NCBI GenBank assembly: GCA_013368375.1 | Contig: JAACJP010000011.1 | Location: 558,001 to 622,000, forward strand | From: Tricholomella constricta | Lineage: Eukaryota; Basidiomycota; Agaricomycetes; Agaricales; Lyophyllaceae | DNA: 64,000 nt | Direction: 5' to 3' | Shown here: piece after piece, positions 2,924 through 29,990 of the stretch | Layout of the letters: every line of letters starts with the position of its first letter | Numbering within the stretch: the first letter of the stretch is position 1 | Position numbers and translations under genes: made by a program | Notes under the pieces: generated by a model | The model's input: only the letters and a program-made list of their open reading frames with translations | The model's database searches: none | What the model was told of the DNA's origin: nothing

Positions 2924-5312
2924 CAGCGGTACTTCACCAAGCTGGACGTTCGATGGGGGTACAACAACGTTCGGATCAAGGAAGGCGACGAGTGGAAGGC
3001 AGCGTTTCGGACAAACCGCGGTCTCTTCGAGCCGCTCGTCATGTTCTTTGGCCTCACGAACAGCCCCGCCACATTTCAGACCATGATGAATGATATCTTC
3101 CGCGATCTGATCGCCGAAGGTGTTGTTTGCATGTACCTCGACGACATCTTGATTTATACCAAGACTCTAGAGGAACACCGTCGGGTCGCGCGACTGGTAC
3201 TGGACCGACTCCGCGAACATCAGTTGTTCTTAAAGCCCGAGAAATGTGAATTCGAGCAGACCAAGATCGAGTATCTCGGACTGATCATCTCGCAAGGGCA
3301 AGCGGAGATGGACCCTGTTAAGGTCGCTGGGGTGTTGGAATGGCCGGCGCCGAAGAACAAGAAGGAAGTGCAAGCATTCCTAGGCTTCACTAAATTCTAC
3401 CGACGGTTCATCCAGGACTTCTCGCATCACGCCCGACCCCTGTTCGATCTGATCGCCTGGCGATGGGGAGAGTCGGAGCAGTCAGCCTTTGGCCTTCTGA
3501 AGTCGGCAATCACATCGGGGCCCGTTCTCATGTTCCCCGACGACGACCGACCGTACCGCATCGAAGCCGATTCGTCTGACTTCGCAACGGGCGCGGTCCT
3601 GTCGCAAGAGTCGCCGTCCGACGGCAAATGGCACCCTGTCGCGTTCTACTCGAAGAGCTTGAACGCCATTGAGCGGAACTACGAGATCCATGACAAGGAG
3701 ATGCTAGCAATCATCCGGTCTCTGGAGGAGTGGCGACACTTCGTAGAAGGCGCAAAGCACAAGGTGGAGATCTGGACCGACCACAAGAATCTTCAGTACT
3801 TCCTCACCGCGAAGAAACTCAATCGACGTCAAGCCCGATGGTCGCTCTACCTCGCCAACTTCGACTTCGCCCTCCACCACCGTCCTGGCCGTAGCATGGG
3901 CAAGCCCGATGCGCTATCGTGTCGCTCCGACCACGGCAACGGAAGTGCTGACAACGCCGACATCGTACTGCTCAAACCTGAGTTCTTCGCAGTTCGCGCG
4001 ACTGAAGGTCTTGTATTGGTCGGAGAAGAGGATGACGTGCTGAAGGCAATTCGCAAGGGCAACCGCGATGGCACACAGGAGGATGCGGTTGCGAAAGCGG
4101 CGCAGCTGGTCAAGGCATCCAAGATCGCTGGTCTCTCCCTTCGCTTTGGCGAGTGGGGAGAGGAAGGCGGTCTGCTCACATTCCGTGGACGGATCTATGT
4201 CCCGAACGTTCCTGACCTCCGCCGACACACTGTGGAGCACCACCACGACTCCAAGGTCGCCGGTCACCCAGGTCGCTGGAAGACATTAGAGCTGGTGTCG
4301 CGCAACTACTGGTGGCCCCAGATGTCGCGCTTTATCGGTTCTTACACCAGCACCTGCGACATGTGCTTGCGCACGAAACCCCGCCACCAACTCCCCATCG
4401 GACAGCTGCAGCCGCTCCCCATTCCTGAAGGCCGATGGAATGTCGTGTCGGTCGACTTCATCACCGAACTCCCCGAGTCCAATGGCCACGACGCCATCAT
4501 GAACGTCGTGGACTCGGTCGGAAAGCGCGCGCACTTCATCGCGTCGCACACGACTTGTTCGGCTTTGGGGGCTGCAAACCTTTACCGTCGCCATGTCTGG
4601 AAGCTCCACGGTCTCCCAGATGCCTTCGTCTCTGATCGAGGTCCACAGTTCGTCGCTGAGTTCACGCGCGAACTGTACCGACTCCTGGGTATCAAGCTGT
4701 CGGCTTTGACGGCGTACCACCCGCAGACCGACAGACAGACCGAACGCGTCAACCAGGAGCTGGAACAGTTCTTGCGGGTCTTCTGCAATGAGCGTCAGAA
4801 CGACTGGGAGGACCTTCTGCCTGACGCCGAATTCAGTTACAACAACCATGTACATTCGGTGACGCAACAGACCCCCTTCCTGCTTGACACTGGTCGGCAT
4901 CCACGCATGGGCTTTGAGCCGCGCCGGGGCGCTTCCAAAAACGAGTCGGCCGACGAGTTCGTAGAGCGCATGAAGGAAGCACAGGAAGAAGCCAAGGCGG
5001 CGCTTTCAAAGGCCAAAGACGACATGGAGCGGTGTTACAACCAGCGACACGCCCCAACGCCCGACTACCAGCCTGGCGACAAGGTGTACTTGGACGCGAC
5101 CAACATTTCCACGACCCGACCGTCTAAGAAACTGTCGCATCGCTACCTTGGCCCTTTTGTCGTGCAAAGGCGAGTCGGCCCGCTCGCATACCGCCTCCTG
5201 CTGCCTCAGTCCATGAAGCGCATCCACCCAGTCTTCCACGTCGTAAAGCTCATCCCGCCGTCGCTGATCCGATCGAAGGTCGTCGGTCCGATCCCCCTGC
5301 TCCCCCCGACAT
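2924..5312 (+). pseudogene. pol: chromovirus pol B: RT (partial)-RNase H-integrase
   Basis: The frame is open from about 2924. Recognisable RT starts at TKLDV (2936) and includes the YLDDIL active site. RNase H (EADSSDFA, EMLAI, TDHKNL, KPDALS) and an HHCC-DDE integrase (HHDSKVAGHP, CDMC, VDFITELP, SDRGP, TERVNQE) follow. Compared with copy C, 12 bases are missing in frame at about 3451, removing four residues between the RT connection and RNase H. A single C is lost near 5250, so the frame ends at 5314 and the chromodomain is cut off from the integrase. The 5' half of pol and all of gag are absent, so the element cannot move by itself. Confidence 0.9.
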
Positions 5313-5515
5313 AATCGACGATGAACCCCATTACGAAGTGGAAAAGATCCTCGACAGCCGCACCTTCCGCAAGAAACTACAGTACAAGGTCCTGTGGAAA
5401 GGCTATGGTTACGAAGAAGCTTCATGGGAACCTCGCAAAAATGTCGCCGCCCCTGATCTGGTACGCAAGTTCCACCGCGACAACCCCGACGCTGCCCGCC
5501 ACATTCGTGGCATGT
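5313..5515 (+). pseudogene. chromodomain of gypsy B, out of frame with integrase
   Basis: The chromodomain is readable from about 5338: VEKILDSR, KVLWKGYG and EASWEP mark the three strands and the aromatic residues that in other chromodomains bind methylated histone tails. It continues the integrase in a shifted frame. The stop codon at 5518-5520 comes from the inserted LTR (starts at 5516), so the original tail was removed by that insertion. In copy C the same domain is still joined in frame. Confidence 0.85.
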
Positions 5516-5710
5516 TGTAGCGGTGCTACAGGACGACCTCGCGAATCACACTACAACCGAGCTTGACCAGATGTCATTTTTCTGCTAGTTGTACATGAAG
5601 TTGCGACGATCTACTTAAAATAATAGATATAAACAATAGATATAGGCAACGCCGAAGGCGTTGCCAAACAATGCCAACACAGGTGACCAGTATGGACCTG
5701 CGTCCTTACA
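5516..5710 (-). repeat. LTR (3' LTR in element orientation)
   Basis: 195 bp, TG...CA borders; it matches 9222-9416 except for three bases near its left end. It contains a perfect 9-bp stem with a GAA loop (5645-5653 / 5657-5665). Confidence 0.95.
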
Positions 5711-6367
5711 TACCCCCCTTTAAGATTGCACTCAGCAATCTTTACACCCGGGCAGATGTCGAGGGAATGTCGTATATATTGCGCGTACAGTACGCGCAAC
5801 AATAGTCGAATTTATTGCGCATATTTTATGCGCCACAGTTGTCGCGTCTGGGTATTGGTACCCCGACGATATGGAATAATGATAATGTTAGGTCATGGCC
5901 CTAACGTAGTGTCGATTCTGTCGACCGCGACTTGTTCCTCCAGTCTCTGAGAGATTGGCGTCCATGTTCCGCGGACGTACTGGCTAGGGTTGGACACATA
6001 ATGCCCAACGATGACTTTCGCGCCTGAGTTGGTTTGATAGTCGCCAATCGAGTCGTTAGCCGGTGATTTATGGCTTCATCGATTTTTTGGCTCCGTCTTC
6101 GACTCCTCGTCGACAGCTATTGCAACTGCCAGACCAGGGCTGGTTGAACCACCGCAGAAGACTGAGGCGCTATTTATCGCGCCGACGTATACGCCACAAG
6201 GATTTCAGCGATGGATATCGCTGCGACTGTGGTTAAAGTCGCGTAGGCTGCCACCTCGACGTTTATCAACGTCGACACATAACCGATACGGCTGCCGGAC
6301 TGATGCGTCTCATATTGCATCTCAAAGACCTGGATAGGAACTGTTGGGCACAACGAGCCCAACACGC
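5711..6367 (-). other. 3' non-coding part of the pol-less element
   Basis: There is no gene. It holds the polypurine tract (minus strand, next to 5710) and strong perfect hairpins, for example 5722-5729 / 5735-5742 (8 bp) and 5779-5788 / 5790-5799 (10 bp with a one-base loop). Confidence 0.7.
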
Positions 6368-9100
6368 TCAATCGGAGTCGGTGCACTCATTATCATCATA
6401 ACGAGCGCTTTCGTCGCTTTGCTCGTCGTTCGAACGAGCGTCTTCTGGGCCGCTATGTGCAGCGCCATTCTCCTGCTCGTCGTTAGACCGAGCGTCTTCC
6501 GAGCCGCTATGCTCAGCGCCACTCTCCTCCTCCTCTTGATAGCTACCACGTTCACGGTAGCTATCATATTCCGCCTCGAGAGCGTTGGTTTCCCCATCGC
6601 TCTCCACTTCGTAGACGTGAATTTCCTTCCCGTCTTCATCGAGGTACTGGTACTCGTGGCATGCGTCCTCACATTCATATGTTTGGACATGCCATGCTTC
6701 TGAGCATTCCGAATGACCTTCGGACCGCTCACCATTCCCGTCGTCTTCCCCTTCCGGTTCATCGCCATATGTGCGATGAACAATTTGGCGCATACACGCC
6801 AATCGCTCGGTGGACATTTCATTCCGAGCTGCCGATGGTGTCGATACCACCATGTCGTAATTGCCCCTAATCGCGCTCATACTGCGCGAGTAGGTTCTCG
6901 AATTACCCTCTACCCAGTCTAGGACATGGTCGGGGGTACGTGTTCGCTCCTGTCCAATTTGCGAACTCGATCTTGACCTTCCCGTTTCACTGGGTCGGTC
7001 ACCAGATCCTCCATCGGATACAGCGCTTGACGCCGTCTCCGCAACAGGCTTGACGCCCATTAACCCCGTGTCCGCACAGAGTTCCTCTCTGTGATGCCGG
7101 AGGTGGTACCTCACCCACCTCCAGACCCGGCGCACATCGTCTTCCGGCCGATCGTGCATTAGCTCCCGGAACGTCTCGTTCCAGTCGCTTCCGTCGTCTA
7201 TGCGTCGTGCTATCCACCACGCAATGTGGAAGTCCGCCTCCGGGTATGCTGGCGTCGACACTTTTGCGGTCGTCGTCCCGTGGCGTTCACTCTTCTTCGA
7301 TGGGCGTTCACCACCCTCATCTCCTCCCTTGCGGACGTTTGTCCGCACCTCCGGTAGTGCCGGATGCTTGTCTCGTACGTCTTTAACTGGACGTGCTGTG
7401 CTCGCATTTACTGCTGGGCTCTGCCCAGCGTTTTGCAGACCAAGTGAGCTCCTTGGTCCGTTCGTGTGCCTCCCCGTAATCTGGGATGCGTTCGCGGTCG
7501 CTTCTCCGCCATCGATGACGGCACCTCTTCTTGGGTGCCTCCGTGGTCGTTCCGGTTGAGGGCGCATGCTGGCGCTCTCCGACACCGATGTGGCGGCCAT
7601 AGCGCCACTATAGGATCTAGGTGTATCATACCTAGATGATGAATAAGCGCGTGCTACTGAACGCGCTGATACAAGCCTATCCCTAGGCTTGGTGGGAGGA
7701 CGCTTGCTGTCCTCCGGTACACCTTCTCGGTGTGATTCGATTCGATGCGCACGACCTTGCCGCGCGCCATCGACTATAGTATGGTCTATCTGAACCATAC
7801 TGCGTCGGTACTCGTTCCTTGCGCCCTCCCGACGCGTCTCAACGGTCGGAGGTCGTACCTTCGACCCCTCCGACATCGTGTCGCTGGCGCTTCTCTCGCC
7901 AGCGGTTGTTGCGCCTTTACTGGGCAACCTCGTTCGTAACACGTCGCTCTGCGACGTTTCCTTCATCGTCTCGTCTGTGGAGTGGCGGCTGGTATTCTGA
8001 TACCTCTCCCCTCCACCAGAACGTCGTTCGGATACGGCGTTCTCCTTGGTTCGTGTCTCCTTGAGCATTCTCCGATGCTCTGCGATACCCTCTACGTTGC
8101 CCAATTGGAGGGCCTCCTGCCTGATCTGTGACCTCCGTCGCATACTTTGCTCTTGCATGGGCGACGGTACTCGCCAGTTGCGGTCGTCGTGTCCGCCACT
8201 ATATGTGACGTTCACCGATGCGAGGCCATTACCCTCGCGTCTTTCGGAACGCTTCACGATGGAACGGAAGGGGGCGGCACTCAAGCCGTCCGAGCGTTCG
8301 TTTTTAAGACCATTAGTTGATGGTCTCGTCGACTTCATTGGCGATGGCGCCTGCGGCACCATCATACTTGCATCGCACGATTGCGATGCTCCTCGTTTTG
8401 CGTCTTTCGGACGCCGCTTCCTATAGTTTTTAACGACCTCACTAAGTGTCGTTATCGTCTTATCAGCGTACGATTCACCGACTACTATACGGTGCAGGTA
8501 CGCTGCCCCGTACTTCCTGTACATTTTGTCGGTGGTCTCGAGCAACCTCCGACGCCGGTACTCGCTCTGGACATCAGTTGTCGCCCAGAATGCTTCGAGT
8601 TTCACCTCCCAAATCGAAGGTGCAGTGTTCACAGTCGGTGCAGTTTTTTGACCGCACCATTCTTGATAGAATACGCGTAGCACGTCCATATATTGTCGTA
8701 GGTACTCGGTATGTCCTACATCCATGTATACTGGTCCATAGTACCTTGATACAACGTGTTCGGCGCACGCTTCGAGCCTACGTCGTTGATTTTCATCGGT
8801 TATCTTAGAAGCCGACCAAAATAGCTGGAGCTCACGCCGTAAAAGGGCGAGCTCGATCCAATCTTCGTGCACAGGCGACGAAGATTCGCCTGTGCCGTTC
8901 CAAAGAAACGGCTCGAGTTTGCTCGAGGGAGCCGCCGCCGGCGGTTCTGCCGTGTGACGTGGCATCAATTTTGATGCTTCGAGCATCGAAAAGTCTCTCG
9001 GAGCCGCAAGCTGCGGTTCCGACGAGTGACGTGGCCGCGTGTCCGCGGCCTCGTGTGTCCATACGCGTGTCGCATGGTCCTGGGTGGTTCTCGGTGTCAT
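6368..9100 (-). CDS. 910-residue gag-like protein of the pol-less LTR element
   Basis: The single long frame runs from ATG at 9100 to the stop at 6368 with no interruption, although stops are common in neighbouring elements. It is not recognised as a known enzyme. Residues about 85-150 and 163-230 are two diverged copies of one domain (LQLFWSASKITDENQRRRLE and LEAFWATTDVQSEYRRRRLL). The same domain opens the gag at 12585 (VKQFWDTTDVVSEHQ, then YADRYLEALSVVV). The middle is long, Arg/Ser-rich and probably disordered. A WIARRIDDGSDW-containing helical block lies near residue 660. The C-terminal 150 residues are very acidic and end in a repeated HSG.EDARSNDEQ unit. There is no zinc knuckle or protease. 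It may be a structural or packaging protein; that function is inference. Confidence 0.8.
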   Translation of the reverse strand: MTPRTTQDHATRVWTHEAADTRPRHSSEPQLAAPRDFSMLEASKLMPRHTAEPPAAAPSSKLEPFLWNGTGESSSPVHEDWIELALLRRELQLFWSASKITDENQRRRLEACAEHVVSRYYGPVYMDVGHTEYLRQYMDVLRVFYQEWCGQKTAPTVNTAPSIWEVKLEAFWATTDVQSEYRRRRLLETTDKMYRKYGAAYLHRIVVGESYADKTITTLSEVVKNYRKRRPKDAKRGASQSCDASMMVPQAPSPMKSTRPSTNGLKNERSDGLSAAPFRSIVKRSERREGNGLASVNVTYSGGHDDRNWRVPSPMQEQSMRRRSQIRQEALQLGNVEGIAEHRRMLKETRTKENAVSERRSGGGERYQNTSRHSTDETMKETSQSDVLRTRLPSKGATTAGERSASDTMSEGSKVRPPTVETRREGARNEYRRSMVQIDHTIVDGARQGRAHRIESHREGVPEDSKRPPTKPRDRLVSARSVARAYSSSRYDTPRSYSGAMAATSVSESASMRPQPERPRRHPRRGAVIDGGEATANASQITGRHTNGPRSSLGLQNAGQSPAVNASTARPVKDVRDKHPALPEVRTNVRKGGDEGGERPSKKSERHGTTTAKVSTPAYPEADFHIAWWIARRIDDGSDWNETFRELMHDRPEDDVRRVWRWVRYHLRHHREELCADTGLMGVKPVAETASSAVSDGGSGDRPSETGRSRSSSQIGQERTRTPDHVLDWVEGNSRTYSRSMSAIRGNYDMVVSTPSAARNEMSTERLACMRQIVHRTYGDEPEGEDDGNGERSEGHSECSEAWHVQTYECEDACHEYQYLDEDGKEIHVYEVESDGETNALEAEYDSYRERGSYQEEEESGAEHSGSEDARSNDEQENGAAHSGPEDARSNDEQSDESARYDDNECTDSD

Positions 9101-9160
9101 GTCGAGATGTTGATGGTAGCCAAAAGGGGTTTGATTGGCCAGATTGAGAAAAGAAGCAGA

Positions 9161-9200
9161 TATAGCGGGATATAGCGGGATATAGCTGTGTATAGCAGTA
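9161..9200 (+). repeat. short tandem repeat in leader of the pol-less element
   Basis: A 10-bp unit TATAGCGGGA occurs twice exactly and then twice in degenerate form (TATAGCTGTG, TATAGCAGTA), between the ATG at 9100 and the 5' LTR. Confidence 0.8.
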
Positions 9201-9221
9201 GAGCTGGATAGCTCAAAAAAA

Positions 9222-9416
9222 TGTAGCTGTGCTACAGGACGACCTCGCGTTTCACACTACAACCGAGCTTGACCAGATGTCATTTTTCTGCTAGTTGTAC
9301 ATGAAGTTGCGACGATCTACTTAAAATAATAGATATAAACAATAGATATAGGCAACGCCGAAGGCGTTGCCAAACAATGCCAACACAGGTGACCAGTATG
9401 GACCTGCGTCCTTACA
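9222..9416 (-). repeat. LTR (5' LTR in element orientation)
   Basis: 195 bp, partner of 5516-5710, with the same GGCAACGCC hairpin (9351-9359 / 9363-9371). On the minus strand it is followed by seven T and GAGCTATC. The relative at 12476 has seven T and AAGCTACC in the same place. No TGG-type primer-binding site is present. Confidence 0.95.
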
Positions 9417-9492
9417 CATGTTCACATTATCCCCGGCTGTCTTCGCCACCGTCACCCCGCACTGAGTCGTTGCGATTCAAAAGGGGGGGTGA

Positions 9493-9882
9493 TGTTAGGG
9501 GAACACCTGTTCGTGCCCTCCTACGCTCATCGACCGCCCCTCGACACGTGTGATCGCTCCTGCCTGATCGCGATCCCGACCCTGATGCTCTGACTCCTGT
9601 CGTTTCCCTCCCTTCCCTGTTTAGGCCTGACACTGTTTCCCGATCACCCGACATCCCGACGACGGTTACCATCAGACAGCATCCGGAACCGCTCGTTATT
9701 ATCACATGTACAGTACACTAGTATATAGCCGGCCCCCTGGCATCTGGGAATCCTTTACACTATTCTCTTTGGATTCCCCTTTGCCAGGTAAGCCTTACTT
9801 ACCTTCGTTTGCTGTACATCAATATAACTTTGGATTCCCCTTTGCCAGCACGACTAAGCTCTGCTCTAAGGTCGCCCTAACA
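9493..9882 (+). repeat. 3' LTR of gypsy B with polypurine tract
   Basis: Starts TGTTAGGGGAAC and ends GCCCTAACA. The polypurine tract AAAAGGGGGGG (just before 9490) precedes it. The same LTR in copy C (29993-30471) is 479 bp against 390 here, so this copy carries internal deletions. It holds a repeated block around TTGGATTCCCCT (9768 and 9831). Confidence 0.85.
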
Positions 9883-9921
9883 CGAACTCTCCGCATACTC
9901 GAAGAAGGCCATGTAGCGCAT

Positions 9922-11090
9922 ATGAAAACACATGCGAAGTATGTTCGGACCTCCTCCCCCATTGTGACGCCTCTCAAAAGCGAAGACCTCCCGACCACAA
10001 AGGGTGCCTACTCTGCGACGAATACCAAACAGACAGCTGGTGATAAGAAGGCCTGGACCATTGACGAGCTGCTGAGAAAAGGGCTCAGTTACGTGCACTG
10101 GGATGGATTGTGAGCACCCGAGCACCCATACCAATTGCACATCAGTGCCTGTTTAACTTTTTTTCCTGCAGTAAAGATATGCCGTTAATTGATAGTGAGG
10201 GACGAGTCATAGCTGTCCTTGTTGGTCAACCGCATGACTCAGGCTACGCTCAGGCTGTCGCAGCAGTTTATGATGCTATGGCATGCGAGGCCCAGGCCAC
10301 CACCTTTCATCGAAACGACACAAATCATCGACGCGGGTGCTTTCCTGCTCTCAATGTCGGTGTCACCTATGGCAAGGGCACAATCAAACCAGTCACAATG
10401 AACAATCACGGCCATAGCGAGATGGTATCTCGCCTTCTTTCTAGTAGAGACCTTCAGCAACTGGCGGCCTTTGACGGTGGTAAGCTTACTTTTATCTTGC
10501 CAGATTTTAATCTCTCTGATGATTTTCGAAAAATAGCCAGCTTCCAATTGTGGGCACCCAACATCTACGATTACTACAAGAGCCACCTCGATCCTCTCTG
10601 AGCGAAGATGCCTGATCTCCGATGGAACTTTGAACGTAGCATCTTCACAAGTGCTGCTTTCAACTTTGGCCCAGATGTTTGGACTTTTGGCCACCGTGAT
10701 GCGCAAAACTGTCCCTTTGGCTGGTGCGCTATCAAGGGCATGGGGCCATACGATTCTACCAAAGGCAGCCACCTTATTCTCTGGGAGCTTGGCCTTGTGA
10801 TTGAGTTCTCTTCAGGCGCTCTTGCTTTAATTCCATCTGCCACCATTTCTCACTCCAATGTTCCTGTGCAACCGGGAGACAGCCGCGCATCCTTCACACA
10901 GTATTGTGCAGGTGGGCTATTTAGATACGTCAACAATGGATTCAAAACTGAGGGTGAGCTTGAAAAGGTGGACAAGGCAGGATACCAAGAAATGTGTGAA
11001 CTGAAGAAGACACGGTGGCAGATGGGGCTGAGTCTTCTTAGTAAATTTGATGATATTGTAAGATACTCGAGCACAAATGTACCACTGTAA
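9922..11090 (+). pseudogene. 2OG-Fe(II) dioxygenase-like protein (TET/JBP-type suspected), one stop
   Basis: Exon 1 9922-10109 and exon 2 from 10172 join in frame across a GT-AG intron (10110-10171). The frame then runs to 11090 apart from one TGA at 10599-10601, where CGA is the likely ancestor. The C-terminal half has what a double-stranded beta-helix oxygenase needs, in order: an HxD (HRD, codons 10692-10700), then SATISHSN with a distal His (about 10850), then an Arg in DSRASFTQY. Iron would be bound by H, D and H, and 2-oxoglutarate by R. Basidiomycetes carry expanded TET/JBP-like families tied to transposons; placing this gene there is inference from those motifs. It begins 40 bp right of LTR 9493-9882, so its 5' end may have been removed. 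Confidence 0.5.
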
Positions 11091-11192
11091 TGTAATTACA
11101 CTTGTAACGCCAGAGCATAAATCTAGGTCAGAACAATTATATGAGGCAATGAGGCAGCAAGTAAGAGTAGGAAAAATACTTCAGAAAGTGAA

Positions 11193-11801
11193 CTAAGGAT
11201 ATGATTCTGCTACCTTGAGAACTTCCACAAACCCCGTGCCATTCTTGCGCTGCAAAAAATCGCAGAACCCACGAGGCGTAAACTGATGCTCATATTGCTC
11301 ACGAATAAATCTAAGAGCAAGTTCAACATTTCAGCGGTGTTTTGCGGCAAGCTTATCTACCAGATTCACGACCTTGCTTCGCCGAGAGGCTTCTGTCTTT
11401 GTGCGTCTGAGGTTCCTCTTCCATCTTGCTCCCCAAGTGATATTCAATTCTCGCATGGGGAGGTGTCCATTGAGCCCGTCCCAGATGTGCGTGATTTTTG
11501 CGATGGTCTGAAATTCATAGTGGGGGAGCCATGTTCCTGATGATGAAATCCAGTCCCATTTGTGTGCTCGAAGACGGGCCTTGGGATATTTCTTCCCAAG
11601 CTCGAACCAAGCTGTCGTTGAAAGCGATGGAATAGGTGAAGGTGTTGGCAGGATTGGGAGGACTGGGTTAGCAATGAGAGGTGTTGACAAGGGCGGAGGT
11701 GGAGGTGACATCGACAACAGTAGCAGAAACGGCGAACTGGAAGATATATCAACCTCCATCTCTATGTTGCTGGTATACTGCCAGCCCCACCTACATACCA
11801 T
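11193..11801 (-). pseudogene. GCR1_C-type DNA-binding domain protein, one stop
   Basis: The frame from 11801 carries a Pro-rich N-terminus and then a block (YEFQTIAKITHIWDGLNG, MRELNITWGARWKRN, RRSKVVNLV) resembling the GCR1_C domain (DNA-binding, related to proteins of Crypton tyrosine-recombinase transposons). A TGA at 11333-11331 interrupts it after KHR. The same frame then continues NVELALRFIREQYE to a stop at 11195-11193. The stop again fits CGA to TGA. The gene lies tail to tail with the oxygenase-like gene. The N-terminal start is uncertain: the first 60 residues are low-complexity. Confidence 0.45.
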
Positions 11802-11875
11802 TTACTTACTTCCTGACCATTATCTTATCTCCCGTACCACGTGACATGCATACTGTTTTTCCTCCGTAGATGTAG

Positions 11876-11969
11876 AGTTCTTTAGTTACTCTCCATCTAA
11901 CCTGGACCCCAGGTATGCGTCTACGCTAATACAGTTCTTTAGTTACTCTCCATCTAACCTGGACCCCAG
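11876..11969 (+). repeat. 37-bp direct repeat, two copies
   Basis: 11876-11912 and 11933-11969 are identical (AGTTCTTTAGTTACTCTCCA, then TCTAACCTGGACCCCAG), 20 bp apart. The rest of 11802-12254 shows no gene. Confidence 0.85.
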
Positions 11970-12254
11970 TCCACTTTAGATCCGTAAGAAGCTCATCAAG
12001 TTGTCTCACGGTGTTCAGTCAATCCTCAAAACACACTCAACACTCTAAAGGTGACCTCGAGGCATCTGGCTGGCCCATGAGGGGGACTGTCACGGAAGTT
12101 GCAACTAGAGGTTGTGATGAAGGCTGGGTGGACGTCATTGAAGGGGGAGGGTGGACTGGAGATAACATCAGACTAGAAGGAACAGAGGCAGATTATTGAT
12201 ACAAACCGAGATCATGGACATCGACGTGTCTTGTCCTTCTTTGGCGTGAGCGCC

Positions 12255-12476
12255 TGTAAGGGCGCTTACTATCTTATCTACTAATTTGATCTAATCGTAT
12301 CTTATCGACACGATTACGCTATTGTTTGGCAACACCTTCTGGTGTTGCCTATTTAATCCTCTACATTACATAATTAAACAGCAGACCTTGTACACCTATA
12401 CGTAGCAATCGACAGACTTGTCAAGCTTATGTCTAGCGTGCACAGCAAGGTCCCCAATCTTGTAACTCCGTTTACA
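12255..12476 (+). repeat. 5' LTR
   Basis: Starts TGTAAGGGCGC, ends TTTACA. It contains a perfect 9-bp hairpin 12328-12336 / 12341-12349 matching the one in the 195-bp LTRs. The borders are inferred by comparison with those LTRs; the partner LTR is not in the window. Confidence 0.7.
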
Positions 12477-12584
12477 TTTTTTTAAGCTACCTTGCTTTCT
12501 ATTGCTGCGTACCCACGACATCACGCAGACCCACATTCCATTTAGAACACCCATCATCAAAAGAACCCACGAGATCCAGACCCG

Positions 12585-15500
12585 ATGACACCAACTCCCA
12601 CATCCGGAAAGAGCCGAACCCCGGTCCTCGAGGATGCGCTCACAGCGCATCCTCCATCACAACCTCCACTGCAACCAGTGGAAGTCGGATCAGTCGCTGG
12701 TGGACAAAGTCCACCAGCGCAGAATACACTAGGATTAGAATCGGAGGAACTTTGGCCGACAGCAAGCACCAATGTGCCTGGGAGCTTGGCCGACAAATTG
12801 GCCAGGTCACAACGACCTGGCTCCACGTCGGGAAGCAGATGGCCAGACAGCCGTCTATCAAGCAGAGCGTTCGGGGTATCCACCCTGAGCATAGTCAAGA
12901 TGGAGTCAGACGAAGACGACTTGTCCGACCCCGAGGCCAATGAAGAAGAAGCCAGCGACAGGGAATTGCTTGCGCTAAAAGTGAAGCAATTCTGGGACAC
13001 CACCGATGTTGTTAGCGAACATCAATGAAGACGACTGGAGGAACGAGCGGATAGGCTCGTTCTATGATCAACCGGAGCACAGTCCGTTGGAGAAATAGTC
13101 GCACAGGAGTATGCCGACCGATACTTGGAAGCGCTGTCCGTAGTAGTTACGGAATACAAGAAGAAGTACCCTAAGGGAACTTCGACTTCAGCAGTCAGTT
13201 CGATCGCTGGGACTCCTATACCTAAGAAAGCTCCGCTCAACAAAGGAAAAGGTCGTTGGGATGACCTTTTCACTCCTCAAGCAGTGGCCTCTGGATCGAA
13301 CCAGCCTCTTGATGAGGCGGCCATGGCAGTATCTGCGCTGCATCAAGCGCGCCAGTTAGGAGAATCTGACGACGATTATCGTCGTCGGGCCGCGGCAGCA
13401 AAACGCGAAAGAATGACTCGTGAAGAGCATCTTGCGCAACCACAAGGTACCTGATGGGCCCCTGTTAGTGAGTCTACATTAGACCCACCCACTGAGCGTA
13501 AGGACACAAGTTCGCAACCAGCTGGCAACGAAAGTGTGCCAGCTATTCAAGTACCTATGGAGGCTAAGGATGGTCGTGTTCCATTAGCAAAAGAGTGGAA
13601 CAACCGGATCGCTTACCAGCGTCTGAGAAATGCTGATCTATCACGGAGCAAGTTCACGAATTATGACGACCAAGGAGTCGTCTTTGAAGGACATATGCCT
13701 GTGGATGAGATGGCGAGGCAATGGGCCTCGCAAACTCAAGGTTCGGATGGTGGGTTGGTAACTGGACCTGAGGCCGTCGAAAAAAATAATTCGACAGCTA
13801 CAGCTAACGGTCGTCGAGACATGCGGGTTCGAATAAGTGAACCCGCGGAATATGCGCAGCCTCGAGCTCAGACTCGAGGCTACTCAATGCCTGCTCCGAT
13901 CCGCCGGAGTCAATCAATTGCGGATGGAATACATGCTGCCGGAGAGCAGCATAAAACTAAGATGCATGAGCGATTGCATCAATTAATGCACGAGCGCTTG
14001 TCGGTACGACTGTCGCTCCCGGACGGGATGGAATCTCGGCGTGCGGACTCAAAGTCCGTAGGCACTTATAGTGGAAGTGCAAAGTTCGGCGACCTAGAAG
14101 AATGGCTGTCGAGCCTTGTCGTTATGCTGGCAGTGAGCCAGTTTGGAGGAGAAGAACGCGACCAAGAGCGCGTTCTGATAACATCCGAGTTTCTCGATGG
14201 CAAAGCTCGAAAGTGGTACAATCGCCACGTTATACATGTGAACCGCGAGAAGCAGTTCTGGACGTTTGAAGACGTCGTACTTGGATTGTATGACCGGTTC
14301 GTGCTACCCTCAACCATGCAAGATGCTCGTAACGACTTCAATGCCGTTACTTACTCGGCGAGCAAAGGAATACAAGGTTTATATGATGACCTTGTGGACC
14401 ATGCCATGAATATGGCAGCAAGAACGGACGATTGGATGTTCTTGGAGAAATTCCTCAAGACACTTCCGCGTGAGATGCGGAAGGCATTATTCGACGACGG
14501 GCTATCACCCGAAATCAACACAGCCCAAGAGTTCCTAGCGGTGGGCTTAGCACACCAAGCCACCCAGAAGACGGCTGATTACTTTGAGCGGAACATAACT
14601 GCTCAGCGAAGTCAACCGAGTCAAACACGGAAACCAGATGGGGGGCGAGTAAACACCCCACAAAACAATTTCAACAGGCCTCGATGTGTGTATGGCGCAC
14701 TTAATGAAAAACCATACGCCAAGCCAGCGTATCAGGACCAACCGGGACGTGGAGAGCAAAAGCCCCACGTTGAAAAACCAGCGGTGAAGACAGGAGATCG
14801 TCCGCGTTACAATCAAACCAAAAACCATGATCATCACAACCATCCTCCGGGTGAAGTGTGCTTTAATTGTGGAAAACTAGGGCATTTTGCAAAAGATTGC
14901 AAACAGCCCAAGAAACAGCGAGCGTTCCTACGGGCCGCACGTACAGCGGCACCTGACGCAGCAAGTGAGGCGGACGATGAAGATACTTCTCCCGAGGACC
15001 CGGACGGATGAGACAATGGACGCCCTGATACAGGGGCGGACAATGAAGACGAAGGCGATGAGTTCGTAGACATGGAGGTCTACGAAAATGAATACTATGC
15101 TCGGGACGATGAGACCGAGCGTATGTTTGCAATGACAGAAGTAATTGCGTCAGAAGAACGCAATGATAAACCACCAGTTCGCAAAGTGAAAGTGCGGACG
15201 GGTAGGGACAAGATTGCTCGTCCCGTAGTTCTGATAAAGGACAAGGAGTGCCTTGTCACCTACATTAACGTAGGTGGATATGAGGCTTGGACCCTCTGGG
15301 ATTCCAGGAGTACGACTACCGGACTTACGCCGTCATTCGCTCAAGTGGCCGATATTCGAGTGTTTCCGCTGGAGGATCCATTAATCCTCCAGCTCGGAAC
15401 TAAAGGAAGTCGGGCCACAGTAAATTTTGGCACGACGGTGGAAGCCGCTCTTCCAGGGTTTAAAGGCAAGGTTTACATGGACCTTGCTAACTTTGATCGA

Positions 15501-16273
15501 TACGACGTGATTATAGGCACGCCGTTTATGCGCGCAAATAACGTCGTGCTGGACTTTAACCGTGACGAAGTTGTCGTCAATGGAGTCGCTACACCAGCGG
15601 TGATTAAAGTAAAAATGGAGGATACCGATGGCCGAGTTAGACGCCATCGGTCATTGGAGAAACGAAGAGAATGGCTAAAAGTAACAGTAGAAGATGACGA
15701 TGATCCTGATAACGAGGGTAGGCCGATAAACAGCCTACCGAAGGATCACCCAGCACTTCTATTATCCGATGAAGAGTTTCAAGAAACTCTTAAGGAGGGG
15801 GATAAGCCACCTCCGAAGAAGAGAAAACCCCAATGACAACAGCAGAAGGCACAAAACGAGCCTTCGAACGAACGAGCACGGACTCACGAGCCATGCGAAG
15901 AACGTCAGCGCGATAATGAAGCGCGTAAGACGAGCGGGGCCGATAAGGATACGGAATCAGAGCCGTATACGAATGCGAGTAATCGATCATTTTGGGATAG
16001 ACCAAATCCACATCCACAATATGAGTGGATGTTCGACCCACGGATGCCGCAAGAATGGAACGCAGTAATAGCGTCAATGCGGGCTCACGAAGGAAGAAAT
16101 GTAGGCACGCGAGGACAAGCGTACCGAAATCCATGGCCTGAGGAAGTATCGGAGCCAATGGAAATGAATTTTCCAGTGAATATACAACGGGCTAAACGGC
16201 CGTTGTATCGGTTACCAGTGAAGGATGAGAGTGACTTTGCTCTCGTAAAACTACGAGCTAGGTTTGATGTTAA
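12585..16273 (+). pseudogene. gag-pro: gag-protease polyprotein with five in-frame TGA codons
   Basis: One reading frame (ATG 12585) stays open to 16273 except for TGA at 13026, 13065, 13452, 15009 and 15834. There is no frameshift and no TAA or TAG, and each TGA sits where an Arg (CGA) codon fits. In order: an N-terminal domain shared with the 910-residue protein; a retrotransposon gag core (FGDLEEWLSS, ARKWYNRHV, LPREMRKALFDD; about 14090-14600); a CX2CX4HX4C zinc knuckle CFNCGKLGHFAKDC (about 14855-14900); and an aspartic protease (about 15230-15560) ending DVIIGTPFMRANNVVLDF. The protease active site reads DSR rather than DSG (about 15300), which should be inactive. It stops inside the sequence leading into RT. 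Confidence 0.85.
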
Positions 16274-16618
16274 TGTCACGACCGCCCCTAAACTCGCAAT
16301 CACTTACGCTTTCCCACGCACGTCCACCGTATATATGATGGCACCACTTCTTTTCAGACTCTTTACCTCGATATTACCATTTGTTACGACTAGTTCCCGT
16401 TCCCGTTTCTTATTCTCTCTTACTCTCTCGGTTTACTCAGCTCCGCAATTGTATCACTTGTGCTCATTCGTTCGAATAAGCTCCGGTGAACATCCTCGTC
16501 AACGCTCACGACCTTCGATTACCCTATCGGAGCCCGTCTTCCTTGACGACGTCAGGCCTGTCCGCTTTGGTGGTCTCGGAATAACTCCGCAACCAGCGTG
16601 CTACGCAAGGTCCTAACA
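16274..16618 (+). repeat. 5' LTR of chromovirus D
   Basis: 345 bp. A TATATATG box at 16329-16337 lies about 28 bases upstream of TACCTCGATATTA (16364-16376), the predicted transcript start. Confidence 0.9.
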
Positions 16619-16631
16619 TAATATCGAGGTC
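16619..16631 (+). promoter_or_regulatory. self-priming primer-binding site
   Basis: TAATATCGAGGTC directly follows the 5' LTR. It is the exact reverse complement of GACCTCGATATTA in the 3' LTR and pairs 12 of 13 with the 5' LTR copy, just downstream of the TATA box. This is the arrangement of Tf1/sushi elements, where the 5' end of the mRNA folds back as primer. No tRNA 3'-end match is present. Confidence 0.75.
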
Positions 16632-16647
16632 TCCCCACCCACCGGAC

Positions 16648-19509
16648 ATGTCCTCGACGATAGTGGAGCCCAACACCACAGTCCGCTATCAAAACTTCGA
16701 AGGTCCCTCTTTCACACAAAGAAGACCTTCACCACCACCTTTCGAAACCTCCCCTGCCTCAACAGGACACATGATGCAAGGGACCTTCGGAACCAACAGG
16801 TCCAGGCTGGAACACAACATTTTCCAACCAGGCCAACACGAGGGGGACTTTTCCTCAGCCAGTCAGGACCCTCGACGACCCCTACCCCGGACCCCCTCAA
16901 ACATATTCAACCCGTCCTACCAACTCGCCACCCCCAACTATCCCCCCTTACCACCATCTGCAACGGCCTCCGGACCTCCGCCTTCAAGTAACCAGACTCC
17001 CGGGTCATACTACGAAAGGTTGAGGCACCCGGAGATGTTCCAGAGGAGGGATAGGGCTCGGGAGGAGGGACAGGGACACTTCGCTCGTCAACAAAACCCC
17101 TTCCTACACGGTTCAGACCACGAAAGAATACTCTACGAGCTCCGCATGACGCGGGAAGAGTTTTCACGACAAGCGCACGAGCTCCTAGTCGAAACCATGG
17201 GGATGGATCATCAACCCCGAACACCGGAACAATGGGCCAACCTCGTGTTGTCGACCATACAACTGCACGAAGCCCATCGATTACCCCCACAACTGACGGT
17301 GTTGCTACAAATGGGGGGAAACGAAAGAAGGTTACGCGCCCTGGCTGGAGAAATCCAGACGTCCAACGAGGGAAGAAGATTCTCCGACCCCCAAAGCGCG
17401 GGACGTTCCTTCCACATGCCAATTCAGGAGCCCGTTCCCTCCAGAATCGAAACTAGATTCGAAGAACCTCCACGAGCAACAAGCACGGTCAATACGCAGA
17501 CAGCTTCGGCTCTACTCAGGAGGATGAACCAAGGGAACGCACCCCCCAGCCAAGAAGGGTTCGAACCCACTGTCACACCAGGGACAGACGCTCGAAGAGC
17601 TCCGACGTTCGGGTTCTGGGGAGCCCACAACTTACAAAGAATCCCCGAAGAGAACCCCCCTGTCGAAGGACCGTTTTCCAGGCCAAATTCGGGTTTTCAG
17701 GGCCCGCAGAGGACCTTCGCAAACCAAGAAGGAGTACCTCCGAGGGAACCTGAGAACATTCCCCTACCTCCGTCGGAACGGGGAATCCCAACGCCACTGT
17801 CGTACGCCCACAGCTACGAACTACGCGAAGAAAACTCGGAAAGAAGAGAGGGAGCACCCCCTAGGGCACGAGAAGACTGGCGCCAAACACCACCTCATCT
17901 GGCAAATCAGAACAGGAGGTCACCGCAAGGCCCACGCCCAATCTCCCCAAGAGAACGACGTGGAATCGGAGCGGACCCCGGCCCCGGTCAAAACGTAAAC
18001 ATCCTCGACGGAAGGCAAGGGACCCAACAACAATTCCCCCAGTTCGAACAATACAGAACTGGCTACAACCCCGGACCAGCCCCACCCATACCCGGCGGAC
18101 GACCGAACCCCCAGTACAACGGACCACCTCCACAGCCCCAACCACCTCCGGGATCTTCGGGACCACCTACCCCGAGAGGAACTCAATGGGGAAACGGCCC
18201 CGGAGGACCAGGAGGGGGAGGAGGAGGTTATTGGGGAAACGGCCCCGGAGGAACAGGAGGTCCTGGAGGAGGGGGAGGTCACGGAGGATACGGACCACCA
18301 CAAGGACCAGGAGGCCCGGGAGGCCCCGGAGGTCCCGGAGGGGGAGGAGGAGGCCACGGAGGAGGAGGAGGAGGAGGCCCACCCGGAAATCCGGGAGGAG
18401 GCCAATTCGCAAACCCTCAACGACCCCCACCTCCACCGCAACAGCTCTTAGGCCCAAACCAAAACCTGACCCCGGAACAGTACCGACACCTCCTAAACCT
18501 GGAATAAATCGACATCAGGAAACCGGACCCCTTCACTGGAAAAGAATTGAGGAGATGGAAGACCTTCGTCACGGAATGCCTAGTAACGTTTCAAGCCAAG
18601 GCGATCACCTACGAACAGGATCACCTGAAGGTGTCATTCGCGAGCTCCTACTTAAAGGACGGAGCTATGGACTACTTTCGGCTGCAACTCACGTACAACC
18701 CCCAACACCCAATGTTCACGAATTGGAAAGGATTCGTACACGAATTAGGATCACGCTTCGGAATACCGAACTCGAGAGTGGAAGCCGAGAACAACATTTC
18801 GCGACTGAAAATGAAGGAATGGGAAAAGTTCACAGCATTCATCGTCAAGTTCGAACAAGAAGCATACGAAACAGGCTGGAACTGGGTAGCACTACAGTTC
18901 ACACTCCGGAAAGCGCTCCCCCAGTGAATCCTTAACGTCCTGGCCATCGCACCAAGCCCCGAAACCTACGAAGGTTACCGAGATCTGGTCACCCAAATCG
19001 ACCGGAGGTACTGGGAACATCGCATAGAAAATCCAGAGTCCTACAAACCCCTCTGGGCGAATAATGCGAACACCTCCAACACCTCCGCACGACCTCCGAT
19101 GGGACCTTCGGCCGGACCCGCAAGCCGCACGACGCCGCAAACGGCTCAGGGGAACAGGAACGCACGCTTGAACGCCGAAAGTCACGATCAGGACCCGGAC
19201 TCAGGTAAGGAAGGTAAGGCGCAAGACCAAGAAATCGCATGGGATGACGAAGAGGCACTACAAGCCAACAACTTCGGGTTCAAGAAGTCAACGCGCCCCT
19301 GGGTGAAGATCGATGAAGACGTAAAGCAACAACGAATTCGAGACAAGGCCTGCATCCTATGCGGTGACCTGGAACACTGGATGCGCGACTGCCCAACAGC
19401 AAACACCATGGGCAGAGCCACCTACCTCATCGGCGACGACATCTTCGAATTCCATCACAAGACAGAAGAGGGAAACGCGGGGGCGATTCAGGACTTACCC
19501 GGGCTCTGA
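16648..19509 (+). pseudogene. gag: gag of chromovirus D, two nonsense codons
   Basis: The frame is continuous from ATG 16648 to 19509 with TAA at 18505-18507 and TGA at 18925-18927, both explained by C to T (CAA, CGA). The N-terminal 480 residues are Pro/Arg-rich. About 18180-18410 codes a Gly-rich tract of GGPGGPGG and GGGG blocks. The gag core follows (LRRWKTFVTECLVTF, AMDYFRLQLTY, HELGSRFG, FTAFIVKFEQEAY). A CX2CX4HX4C zinc knuckle CILCGDLEHWMRDC ends it (about 19350-19392). This is unusually long for a gypsy gag because of the Pro/Gly-rich front. Confidence 0.85.
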
Positions 19510-27344: not shown

Positions 27345-27540
27345 GTCGGCTGCAGTGAATGCCACAGCGAGCACTTTATTGTCGTCAATGGTGGTACAGT
27401 GTATCTAGTCCACTGCTCCGTTAAAAACAACATACTGTAAAGGCGTCTGCTACGACACAGAGGACCCGCTCGATGTGTCAACTACAGTACACTGTATATG
27501 CCCGCTAGAGCGTTGGTCACATTACAGTGTTGTGTATGTA
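27345..27540 (+). other. unassigned 196 bp between chromovirus D and gypsy C
   Basis: No coding sequence or match to other parts of the window was seen. The left edge lacks the target duplication expected for chromovirus D. Confidence 0.5.
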
Positions 27541-29990
27541 TGTGGATTTATACCAAGACTCTAGAGGAACACCGTCGGGTCACGCGACTGGTACTGGACC
27601 GACTCCGCGAACATCAGTTGTTCTTAAAGCCCGAGAAATGCGAATTTGAACAGACCAAGATCGAGTATCTTGGGCTGATCATTTCGCAAGGGCAAGCGGA
27701 GATGGACTCGGTTAAAGTTGCTGGAGTGTTGGAATGGCCGGCGCCGAAGAACAAGAAGGAGGTGCAAGCGTTCCTAGGCTTCACCAATTTCTACCGACGG
27801 TTCATTCAGGACGTCTCGCACCACGCCAGACCCCTGTTCGACCTGACTGGCAAAGATGTCGCCTGGCGATGGGCAGAGTCGGAGCAGTCGGCCTTTGCCC
27901 TTCTGAAGTCTGCAATCACGTCGGGGCCAGTCCTCATGTTCCCCGACGATGACCGACCGTACCGCATCAAAGCCGATTCGTCCGACTTCGCAACGGGCGT
28001 GGTCCTGTCACAGGAGTCACTGACTGATGGCAAATGGCACCCAGTCGTGTTCTACTCGAAGAGCTTGAACGCGGTCGAGCGGAATTACGAGATCCACAAC
28101 AAGGAGATACTGGCGATCATCCGGTCTCTGGAGGAGTGGCGACACTTTGTAGAAGGCGCAAAGCATAAAGTGGAGATCTGGACCGACCACAAGAACCTCG
28201 AGTACTTCCTCACCGCGAAGAAGCTCAATCGGCGTCAAGCCCGATGGTCGCTCTACTTCACCAACTTTGACTTTGCCCTCCACCACCGTCCTGGCCGTAG
28301 CATGGGCAAGCCCGATGCATTATCGCATCGCTCTGACCACGGCGACGGAAGCGTCGACAACGCTGACATCATCCTACTCAAGCCCAAGTTCTTCGCTGTT
28401 CGCGCGACGGAAGGTCTTGCGCTGGTCGGAGAGGAGGACAATGTGCTGAAAGTGATCCGCAAGGGCAATTGTGACGGAGCGCAGGAGGATGCGGTCATGA
28501 AAGCGGCGCAACTGGTCAAGGCATCCAGGATCGCTGGTCGCTCCCTACGCTTCAGCGAGTGGGGAGAGGAAAGCGGTCTGCTCACATTCCATGGACAGAT
28601 CTATGTCCTGAACGTCCCAGACCTCCACCGATGCATTGTGGAGCAGCACCACGACTCCAAGGTCGCGGGTCACCCCGGTTGCTGGAAGACGCTTGAATTG
28701 GTGTCACGTAACTACTGGTGGCCCCAGGTGTCGCATTTTGTTGGGCCTTACACCCGCACCTGCAATATGTGCCTGCACACCAAGCCACATCGCCAACTCC
28801 CGGTTGGACAGTTGCAGCCGCTCCCGATCCCCGAAGGCCAATGGAACATCGTGTTGGTGGACTTCATCACCGAACTCCCAGAATCCAATGGCCACGACGC
28901 AATCATGAATGTCATGGACTCGGTCGGAAAGCGTGCGCATTTCATCGCGTCGCACACAACCTGTTCGGCTCTGGGAGCTGCAAACCTCTACCAACGCCAC
29001 GTCTGGAAGCTGCACGGTCTCCCCAACGCATTCATCTCCGATTGAGGTCCACAGTTCGTCACTGAGTTCACGCGCAAACTGTACAGACTCCTGGGTATCA
29101 AGCTGTCAGCCTCGACGGCATACCACCCACAGACCGACGGACAGACTGAGCACGTCAACCAGGAGCTGGAACAGTTCTTGCGAGTCTTCTGCAATGAGCG
29201 CCAGAACGACTGGGAGGACCTCCTGCCCGACGCCAAATTCAGCTACAATAACCATGTACATTTGGCAATGCAGCAGACCCCCTTCCTGCTCGACACTGGT
29301 CAGCATCCGCGCATGGGCTTTGAGCTGCGTCGGGGCGCCTCCAAGAACGAGTCCGCTGACGAGTTCGTGGAACGCATGAAGGAGGCGCAGGAGGAAGCCA
29401 AGGCAGCGCTTGCAAAGGCAAAGGACAACATGGAGTGGTATTACAACCAGCGACACACCCCAACGCCCGACTACCAGCCTGGCGACAAGGTGTACTTGGA
29501 CGCGACCGACATTTCTACGACCCGACCATCTAAGAAGTTGTTGCATCGCTACCTTGGCCCTTTTGTCGTGCAAAGGCGAGTCAGCCCGCTCGCATACTGC
29601 CTCCTGCTGCCTCAGTCCATGAAGCGCATCCACCCAGTCTTCCACGTCATGAAGCTCATCCCCGCCGTCACTGATCTGATCGAAGGTTGTCGGTCTGATC
29701 CCCCTCCGCCCCCCGACATAATCGACGATGAACCCTATTATGAAGTTGAAAAGATCCTCGATAGCCGAACCTTCTGCAAAAAACTACAGTACAAAGTCCT
29801 GTGGAAAGGCTACGGTTATGAAGAAGCTTCATGGGAACCTCGCGAAAATGTCGCCACCCCCGATCTGGTACGAAAGTTCCACTGCAACAACCCTGATGCT
29901 GCCCCCACGTTTGTGGCATATTCACACTATCCCCGGCTGTCTTCGCCACCACTACCCCGCACTGAGTCGTTGCGATTGAAAAGGGGGCGT
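27541..29990 (+). pseudogene. pol: chromovirus pol C: RT end-RNase H-integrase-chromodomain
   Basis: The frame is open from 27541 with one nonsense codon, TGA at 29043-29045; copy B has CGA at the matching place (4636-4638), so this is a direct case of C to T. It keeps the TGKDVAWRW stretch whose 12 bases are missing in B. The integrase and chromodomain (VEKILDSR, VLWKGYG, SWEP) are joined in frame here, unlike in B. The frame then passes into the LTR (29993). This copy preserves the ancestral layout best. Confidence 0.9.

Follow-up and report, generated by a model that had tools for sequence, protein, structure and literature searches.

The window analysed here, a 64,000-nucleotide stretch of the Tricholomella constricta genome, contains a long terminal repeat (LTR) retrotransposon without a pol gene (5516-9416; the pol-less element) that is tiled with short perfect hairpins. 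The same tiling is present in the LTR and all three open reading frames (ORFs) of an autonomous partner element and extends to two sister families, P and Q, in which the pol ORFs show it. We lean towards the explanation that the hairpins of this fungal Ty3/gypsy clade are selected during propagation, most likely for the packaging of folded genomic RNA by Gag. All DNA comparisons were made within one 44-Mb genome, searched piece by piece; as the compared sequences are often related, concordance among families carries more weight than any one p value.

Excess of short perfect hairpins

The interior of the pol-less element (5711-9221) contains 44 perfect hairpins with a stem of at least 6 bp and a loop of up to 10 nt, against 7.8 ± 2.8 (maximum 15) in 60 dinucleotide shuffles. 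The original prediction, which described perfect inverted repeats throughout this interior and placed most of them in its 910-codon frame, is borne out on both points. All nine repeats that it quoted are perfect, the one at 7673-7690 extending to 8 bp (7672-7691), and 36 of the 44 hairpins lie in the frame, where 100 protein-preserving shuffles gave 8.0 ± 2.9 (maximum 16). The density is 12.5 hairpins per kb; the window minus its two hairpin-rich elements has 130 hairpins in 56,113 bases, or 2.3 per kb. Stems measure 6-11 bp and loops mostly 3-12 nt, with lengths of 0-2 and above 15 being rare. Hairpin spacing showed no consistent departure from random, and the codon register of the stems showed no clear preference and was uninformative. 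The features of the pol-less element are as follows.

5511-5515, unstranded: target-site duplication CATGT, left copy, same letters as 9417-9421
5516-5710, minus strand: LTR of 195 bp, the 3' LTR in coding sense, three differences from 9222-9416
5645-5665, unstranded: LTR hairpin with a 9-bp stem GGCAACGCC and a 3-nt loop; also present in the autonomous LTR, where A-T replaces a G-C pair
5711-5721, minus strand: polypurine tract, AAAGGGGGG then TA in coding sense, abutting the LTR; same tract in the autonomous element
5711-9221, minus strand: hairpin-tiled interior, 44 perfect hairpins
6368-9100, minus strand: 910-codon ORF, 36 hairpins within, no Pfam family
9222-9416, minus strand: second LTR of 195 bp, the 5' LTR in coding sense, followed by T7-GAGCTA
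9417-9421, unstranded: target-site duplication CATGT, right copy

The autonomous partner, pieced together from loci L039 and L041, is about 11 kb long and runs LTR, gag-pro (1041 codons), in-frame UGA-CUA, pol (1299 codons), third ORF (999 codons; ORF3), LTR. It is a Ty3/gypsy LTR retrotransposon, with a zinc knuckle in gag and a protease (zf-CCHC at residues 771-787 and RVP_2, below cut-off, at 905-1012 of gag-pro) followed by reverse transcriptase (RT), RNase H and integrase (RVT_1 314-474, RNase H 566-668, H2C2 863-915 and rve 932-1029 of pol). Hairpins occur along both pieces, and the LTR region alone has three in 230 bases at a stem of at least 5. Under protein-preserving shuffles at a stem of at least 6, the gag-pro ORF has 43 hairpins against 7.7 ± 2.5 expected and the pol ORF 38 against 9.0 ± 2.8. 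Sister family P, represented by two copies with pol 58% and 56% identical, has 38 against 8.0 and 30 against 8.4 in its pol ORFs, and family Q (pol 68% identical) has 20 against 9.1.

It had been claimed that neighbouring elements show no such excess and that the hairpins are confined to the pol-less element. The first claim is correct for nine of nine control ORFs (eight in the window, including three gypsy elements, and one beside L039), in which z did not exceed 2.0 at stem 6. It fails for the gypsy copy at 12255-16270, a decayed autonomous element with 46 hairpins against 8.0 ± 3.4 (maximum 20, 60 shuffles). The supposed confinement is contradicted by this copy, the autonomous element and the two sister families. 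The three unstructured gypsy elements belong to other clades, and their aligned parts are 21-37% identical to this pol. Among the controls, z at stem 7 peaked at 2.6, in a kinase-like host ORF (58495-59979), which has three hairpins with a stem of at least 8 against 0.2 expected. The decayed copy comprises the following features.

12255-16270, plus strand: second hairpin-tiled element, 5' LTR and gag-pro, ending abruptly near 16270; 96% identity to L039 in 4020 bases; 46 hairpins
12255-12476, plus strand: 5' LTR, followed by T7-AAGCTA
12328-12349, unstranded: LTR hairpin of the autonomous type, GGCAACACC / GGTGTTGCC
13536-15011, plus strand: gag remnant ORF with CCHC zinc knuckle
15072-15836, plus strand: protease remnant ORF, RVP_2 below the Pfam cut-off

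Folding energy and strand

The same sequences stand out in folding energy. We computed the minimum free energy (MFE) difference (MFED) of 350-nt fragments relative to dinucleotide shuffles. Mean sense MFED was 22.4%, 26.8% and 21.6% in the autonomous subfamilies X (gag-pol), Y and Z, 30.7% in ORF3, 22.2% and 22.6% in the pol-less A and C, 24.3% and 18.8% in the two copies of family P, and 22.5% in family Q, which reaches this value with fewer perfect hairpins (5.2 per kb). All nine clade sequences thus fall between 18.8% and 30.7%, compared with 0.4-2.3% in four controls, among them two gypsy elements of other clades. Fragments with MFED above 10% numbered 131 of 135 in the clade sequences and 8 of 74 in the controls. 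The RNA phages MS2 (NC_001417) and Qbeta (NC_001890) gave 29.4% and 30.5% by the same procedure. Against synonymous shuffles, the z value of the sense MFE was -8.4 to -12.8 in four ORFs of the clade and -1.9 to +4.1 in five controls, which include the three gypsy elements of other clades; the pol ORFs of the sister families gave -16.7 and -11.0 (P) and -11.3 (Q). Rfam 15 yielded no match above gathering score in window positions 5000-17000 or in L039, L041, L042 and L010.

Sense exceeds antisense MFED by 3.3 points (p = 0.001; 71 fragments, five sequences), and the sense excess is strong in family Q (22.5% versus 13.5%, p = 0.0001) and in ORF3 (30.7% versus 24.3%). In MS2 and Qbeta the difference likewise averages 3.3 (p = 0.11, 22 fragments). 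With moderate confidence, we take the selected molecule to be the sense RNA.

Turnover of individual hairpins

Hairpin density is kept while most individual hairpins turn over between families. In pol, X and its close subfamily Z have 26 of 44 hairpin centres in common. X and Q have 4 of 44 (0.1 expected), with base pairs exchanged at the same place, and X and P have 1 of 44 (0.2 expected). Retention of density without retention of individual pairings is also the pattern given for coronaviruses in the sections of PMC7642675 drawn on here.

Substitutions in stems

Stems defined in one of two compared sequences carry an ascertainment bias; therefore, we used outgroup-defined stems and pseudo-stem controls. 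In the comparison of X with Y, for which the outgroup Z defined the stems, substitutions were found at 94/1524 sites in stems, 111/779 in loops and 815/7421 elsewhere (three blocks summed). The proposal that folding constrains the protein-coding sequence is supported by the third codon positions of the autonomous gag-pol, which, between subfamilies, change less in outgroup-defined stems (29/286) than in loops (25/157) or elsewhere (272/1615).

In the strongest test, we separated changes present in at least two copies, which have passed through propagation (shared), from those present in one copy, taken as mostly post-insertion (private). The pol-less family was represented by 19 aligned copies, with subfamilies about 80-100% identical in DNA, chosen from 30 fetched loci after exclusion of loci repeating one copy and of L023, L034 and L035, which are C22 fragments. 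Columns with at least 14 of 19 rows were used for this family and at least 11 of 14 for the autonomous gag, in which L042, L043, L050 and L054 cover part of the ORF only. In the pol-less family (threshold 4), shared changes occur at 0.211 per site in stems and 0.314 in matched pseudo-stems (odds ratio (OR) 0.58, p = 0.0003), whereas private changes occur at 0.242 and 0.210 (OR 1.21, p = 0.25) and are in excess in stems relative to a second pseudo-stem set (OR 1.53, p = 0.003). Over six comparisons the OR was 0.51-0.66 for shared changes (p from 2e-7 to 0.025) and 1.21-1.88 for private ones. Without the pseudo-stem control the shared OR was 0.43-0.63, so that pseudo-stems weaken the p values and keep the effect. 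In the autonomous gag (threshold 3, pseudo-stems), shared changes occur at 0.071 versus 0.131 (OR 0.51, p = 0.004) and private ones at 0.032 versus 0.011 (OR 3.07, p = 0.07), and four pseudo-stem comparisons gave 0.38-0.51 for shared and 1.65-3.40 for private changes. As shared changes avoid stems and private changes do not, the pattern speaks for selection that acts on folding while the elements propagate, and not for a mutational process that makes palindromes.

Private mutations of the pol-less family are slightly commoner at stem sites, above all at CpG (0.399 versus 0.315 per CpG site), which suggests CpG decay of silenced copies.

Proposed role in packaging and its alternatives

In the explanation that we favour, selection would act as the elements propagate, and its target would be bulk folding rather than particular hairpins. 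The sense genomic RNA, folded throughout, would be packaged by the Gag of the clade and compacted in virus-like particles. Packaging by the clade's own Gag would explain why the property follows the pol clade and its pol-less partner and not every gypsy element of the host. Tentatively, one could go further and see the mRNA and genome of the whole clade as a fully folded RNA like that of a phage, in which bulk hairpins and not one packaging signal mark the RNA for particles. The pol-less parasite would then have acquired an equal density of folds, in a sequence unrelated to that of its partner, so as to be carried along.

Several observations weigh against selection on the folded sense RNA for packaging. 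Family P leans towards antisense, although not significantly (24.3% versus 26.9%; second copy 18.8% versus 20.6%). Stem changes to G-U and to A-C are disfavoured alike (ratios 0.63 and 0.62; 38 versus 36 events), which is odd under selection on RNA only, and single-mismatch stems lean towards G-U in MS2 and Qbeta (10 versus 5) and not in the element (16 versus 23). The shared/private test covers two families only. Covariation, for which controls in gag-pol and ORF3 were stems of at least 5 with loops of 25-124, is not in excess in gag-pol (3/1041 versus 29/2257) or in the stems of the pol-less family (24/347 pairs versus 35/482 in slid controls), for which the original prediction had proposed a search for compensatory changes; the sole excess is in the fast-evolving ORF3 (26/644 versus 18/1258). 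Single substitutions that remove a pair exceed those that add one, 141 versus 49, where the neutral expectation is 175 and 38.5. As to loop motifs, only A-rich trinucleotides are enriched, AGA about 2-fold in two families, longer motifs not having been searched.

The main rival to packaging, and like it among the explanations of the original prediction, is shielding from RNA interference, in which the RNA would be kept folded to escape silencing, with hairpins denying Argonaute access to its target and hindering copying by the host RNA-dependent RNA polymerase (RdRP). The same structural data fit this explanation, Piwi domains were matched at about six places in the genome and RdRP domains at six or seven, and shielding from recognition by genome-scale structure is proposed for viruses in the sections of PMC7642675 drawn on here. 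However, the three gypsy elements outside the clade, which face the same host and lie in the same window, lack this structure, and we regard shielding as rather unlikely.

It is also conceivable that selection favours pairing in the single-stranded cDNA or on both strands, for instance because this protects or condenses the cDNA, and not in RNA specifically. The equal tolerance of G-U and A-C in stems and the nearly equal folding of the two strands would fit. The G-U/A-C symmetry could be taken as a sign of DNA or mutation. This strand test is weakened by MS2 and Qbeta, which exist as RNA only and whose folding energy is nearly symmetrical as well; in addition, the small sense excess reaches significance across five sequences and is pronounced in family Q and in ORF3. 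Selection on cDNA appears improbable.

We give still less credence to palindrome-making mutation, such as quasipalindrome correction by the element's reverse transcriptase, which would make selection unnecessary and which the original prediction had listed among its explanations. In its favour, the hairpins characterise a single pol clade together with the pol-less partner, the tested gypsy elements of other clades being without them, and in a partial list of gained hairpins some of those in ORF3 have clustered changes in one arm. Mutation or host repair acting on integrated DNA would not result in the depletion of shared changes from stems without a deficit of private ones. Correction during reverse transcription could yield that pattern, but it predicts many exchanged pairs, and gag-pol has few. 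Conserved pol residues are not broken in stems (1/62 versus 13/377 columns), and family Q attains its 22.5% MFED although its perfect hairpins are fewer. As for arm polarity, gained hairpins lean left in gag-pol (13:3), right in the pol-less family (10:22) and neither way in total (33 left, 38 right); it was dropped as a criterion, the overall lack of polarity also speaking against this mechanism. By chance about 8 of the 44 hairpins would be expected anyway; for the rest, dinucleotide and synonymous shuffles refute chance as well as a side effect of codon use or base composition, and this explanation has a negligible probability.

Relation to known structured RNAs

The predicted folding of the clade seems to work like the genome-scale ordered RNA structure (GORS) of RNA viruses. 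As in GORS, to the extent that the sections drawn on here describe it, folding energy exceeds that of shuffles along the genome, pairings are poorly conserved between relatives, pairings can be displaced by a few bases at the same place (here one ORF3 case, in a partial list), and paired sites are less diverse than unpaired ones. Unlike in GORS, the carrier is an LTR retrotransposon and not a positive-strand RNA virus, and the structure is built largely from perfect hairpins of 6-11 bp. As this carrier encodes RT, RNase H and integrase and has many integrated copies, we speak of a likeness to GORS and not of an instance of it. The MFED of 19-31% compares with 15% for SARS-CoV-2, 7-9% for HCV and a maximum of 23.4% among vertebrate RNA viruses in the same sections of PMC7642675, obtained by similar, not identical, procedures. 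MS2 and Qbeta resemble the clade in MFED (29-31%) and near strand symmetry, and differ in having 4.2 and 4.7 perfect short hairpins per kb, about one-third of the 11.3 of the pol-less and the 10.6-15.3 of the autonomous elements.

Among LTR retrotransposons, the genomic RNAs of Ty3 and Ty1 in yeast are described as mosaics, with stable, highly structured regions amounting to up to 30% of the RNA (PMC11381356); they resemble the clade in having structured regions, whereas genome-wide tiling is not described in the sections of that paper drawn on here. We found no description of hairpin-tiled LTR retrotransposons in the literature surveyed, which includes sections of PMC7642675, PMC3695492 and PMC11381356.

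Pervasive selected RNA structure has been argued for RNA viruses, and its purpose is unsettled. This clade, whose folding comes close to that of RNA phages, beside unstructured gypsy elements and with a pol-less partner, offers a natural experiment in which host and silencing machinery are the same and element machinery differs, so that packaging and shielding can be tested against each other directly. Synonymous sites in such elements may not be neutral, and therefore ages and dN/dS derived from them could be biased.

Anatomy of the two elements and their surroundings

The paired LTRs, target-site duplication and polypurine tract, together with the absence of pol, identify 5516-9416 as a non-autonomous LTR retrotransposon, whose only long ORF is the 910-codon frame on the minus strand. 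TR-GAG and LARD elements are likewise non-autonomous LTR elements; they have a gag-like ORF but lack pol. The pol-less element is like them in having LTRs, a target-site duplication, one long ORF, no pol and the LTR features of its autonomous partner, and unlike them in that its ORF has no Pfam Gag domain, only a domain of about 90 residues of the partner's Gag-Pro. This domain occurs twice in tandem (residues 86-252): residues 86-162 and 163-252 align to Gag-Pro residues 141-218 and 141-230, with 42% identity over 91 residues of its N-terminal region. The ORF matched nothing in Pfam, and outside this genome none of 7994 scored candidates from the protein database attained E 0.001.

The two elements have in common the LTR hairpin, the T7-(A/G)AGCTA interior start and the domain of about 90 residues. 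The hairpin differs by an exchanged base pair, GGCAACGCC/GGCGTTGCC in the pol-less and GGCAACACC/GGTGTTGCC in the autonomous element, and pattern matching in the genome counted 227 such LTR hairpins, the two types taken together. Many of the places listed have LTR hairpins about 10.75 kb apart, consistent with the paired LTRs of the autonomous element, and one 3' LTR of it with the polypurine tract was observed. The interior starts at 9181-9221 (minus) and 12477-12489 (plus) have no evident primer site complementary to a tRNA, though tRNAs were not compared. The autonomous LTR and interior contain complementary stretches, ACCTTGCT/AGCAAGGT, so that self-priming of this element may be possible.

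In the autonomous element, gag-pro and pol are in one frame with UGA-CUA between them (L039:4301-4326; also L040 and L043), L042 likewise has an in-frame stop at this junction, and the decayed window copy has TGG there (15663-15688). A UGA-CUA context favours stop-codon read-through. ORF3 (L041:410-3406), which follows pol in the place of env in retroviruses and has no Pfam match, evolves fast, its subfamilies being 79-82% identical in DNA, and is more structured than any other part of the element.

Searches with the RT part of pol found 256 protein relatives at E ≤1e-40; viral contigs yielded no relatives. Those named among the best 120 of the 256 come from Agrocybe, Leucocoprinus, Phanerochaete, Trametes and Peniophora. 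In the window, a gypsy pol ORF (3041-5314) that carries a Tf2-1-like SH3 domain has the pol-less element directly downstream of it, and a similar ORF begins at 27498 (27498-29045).

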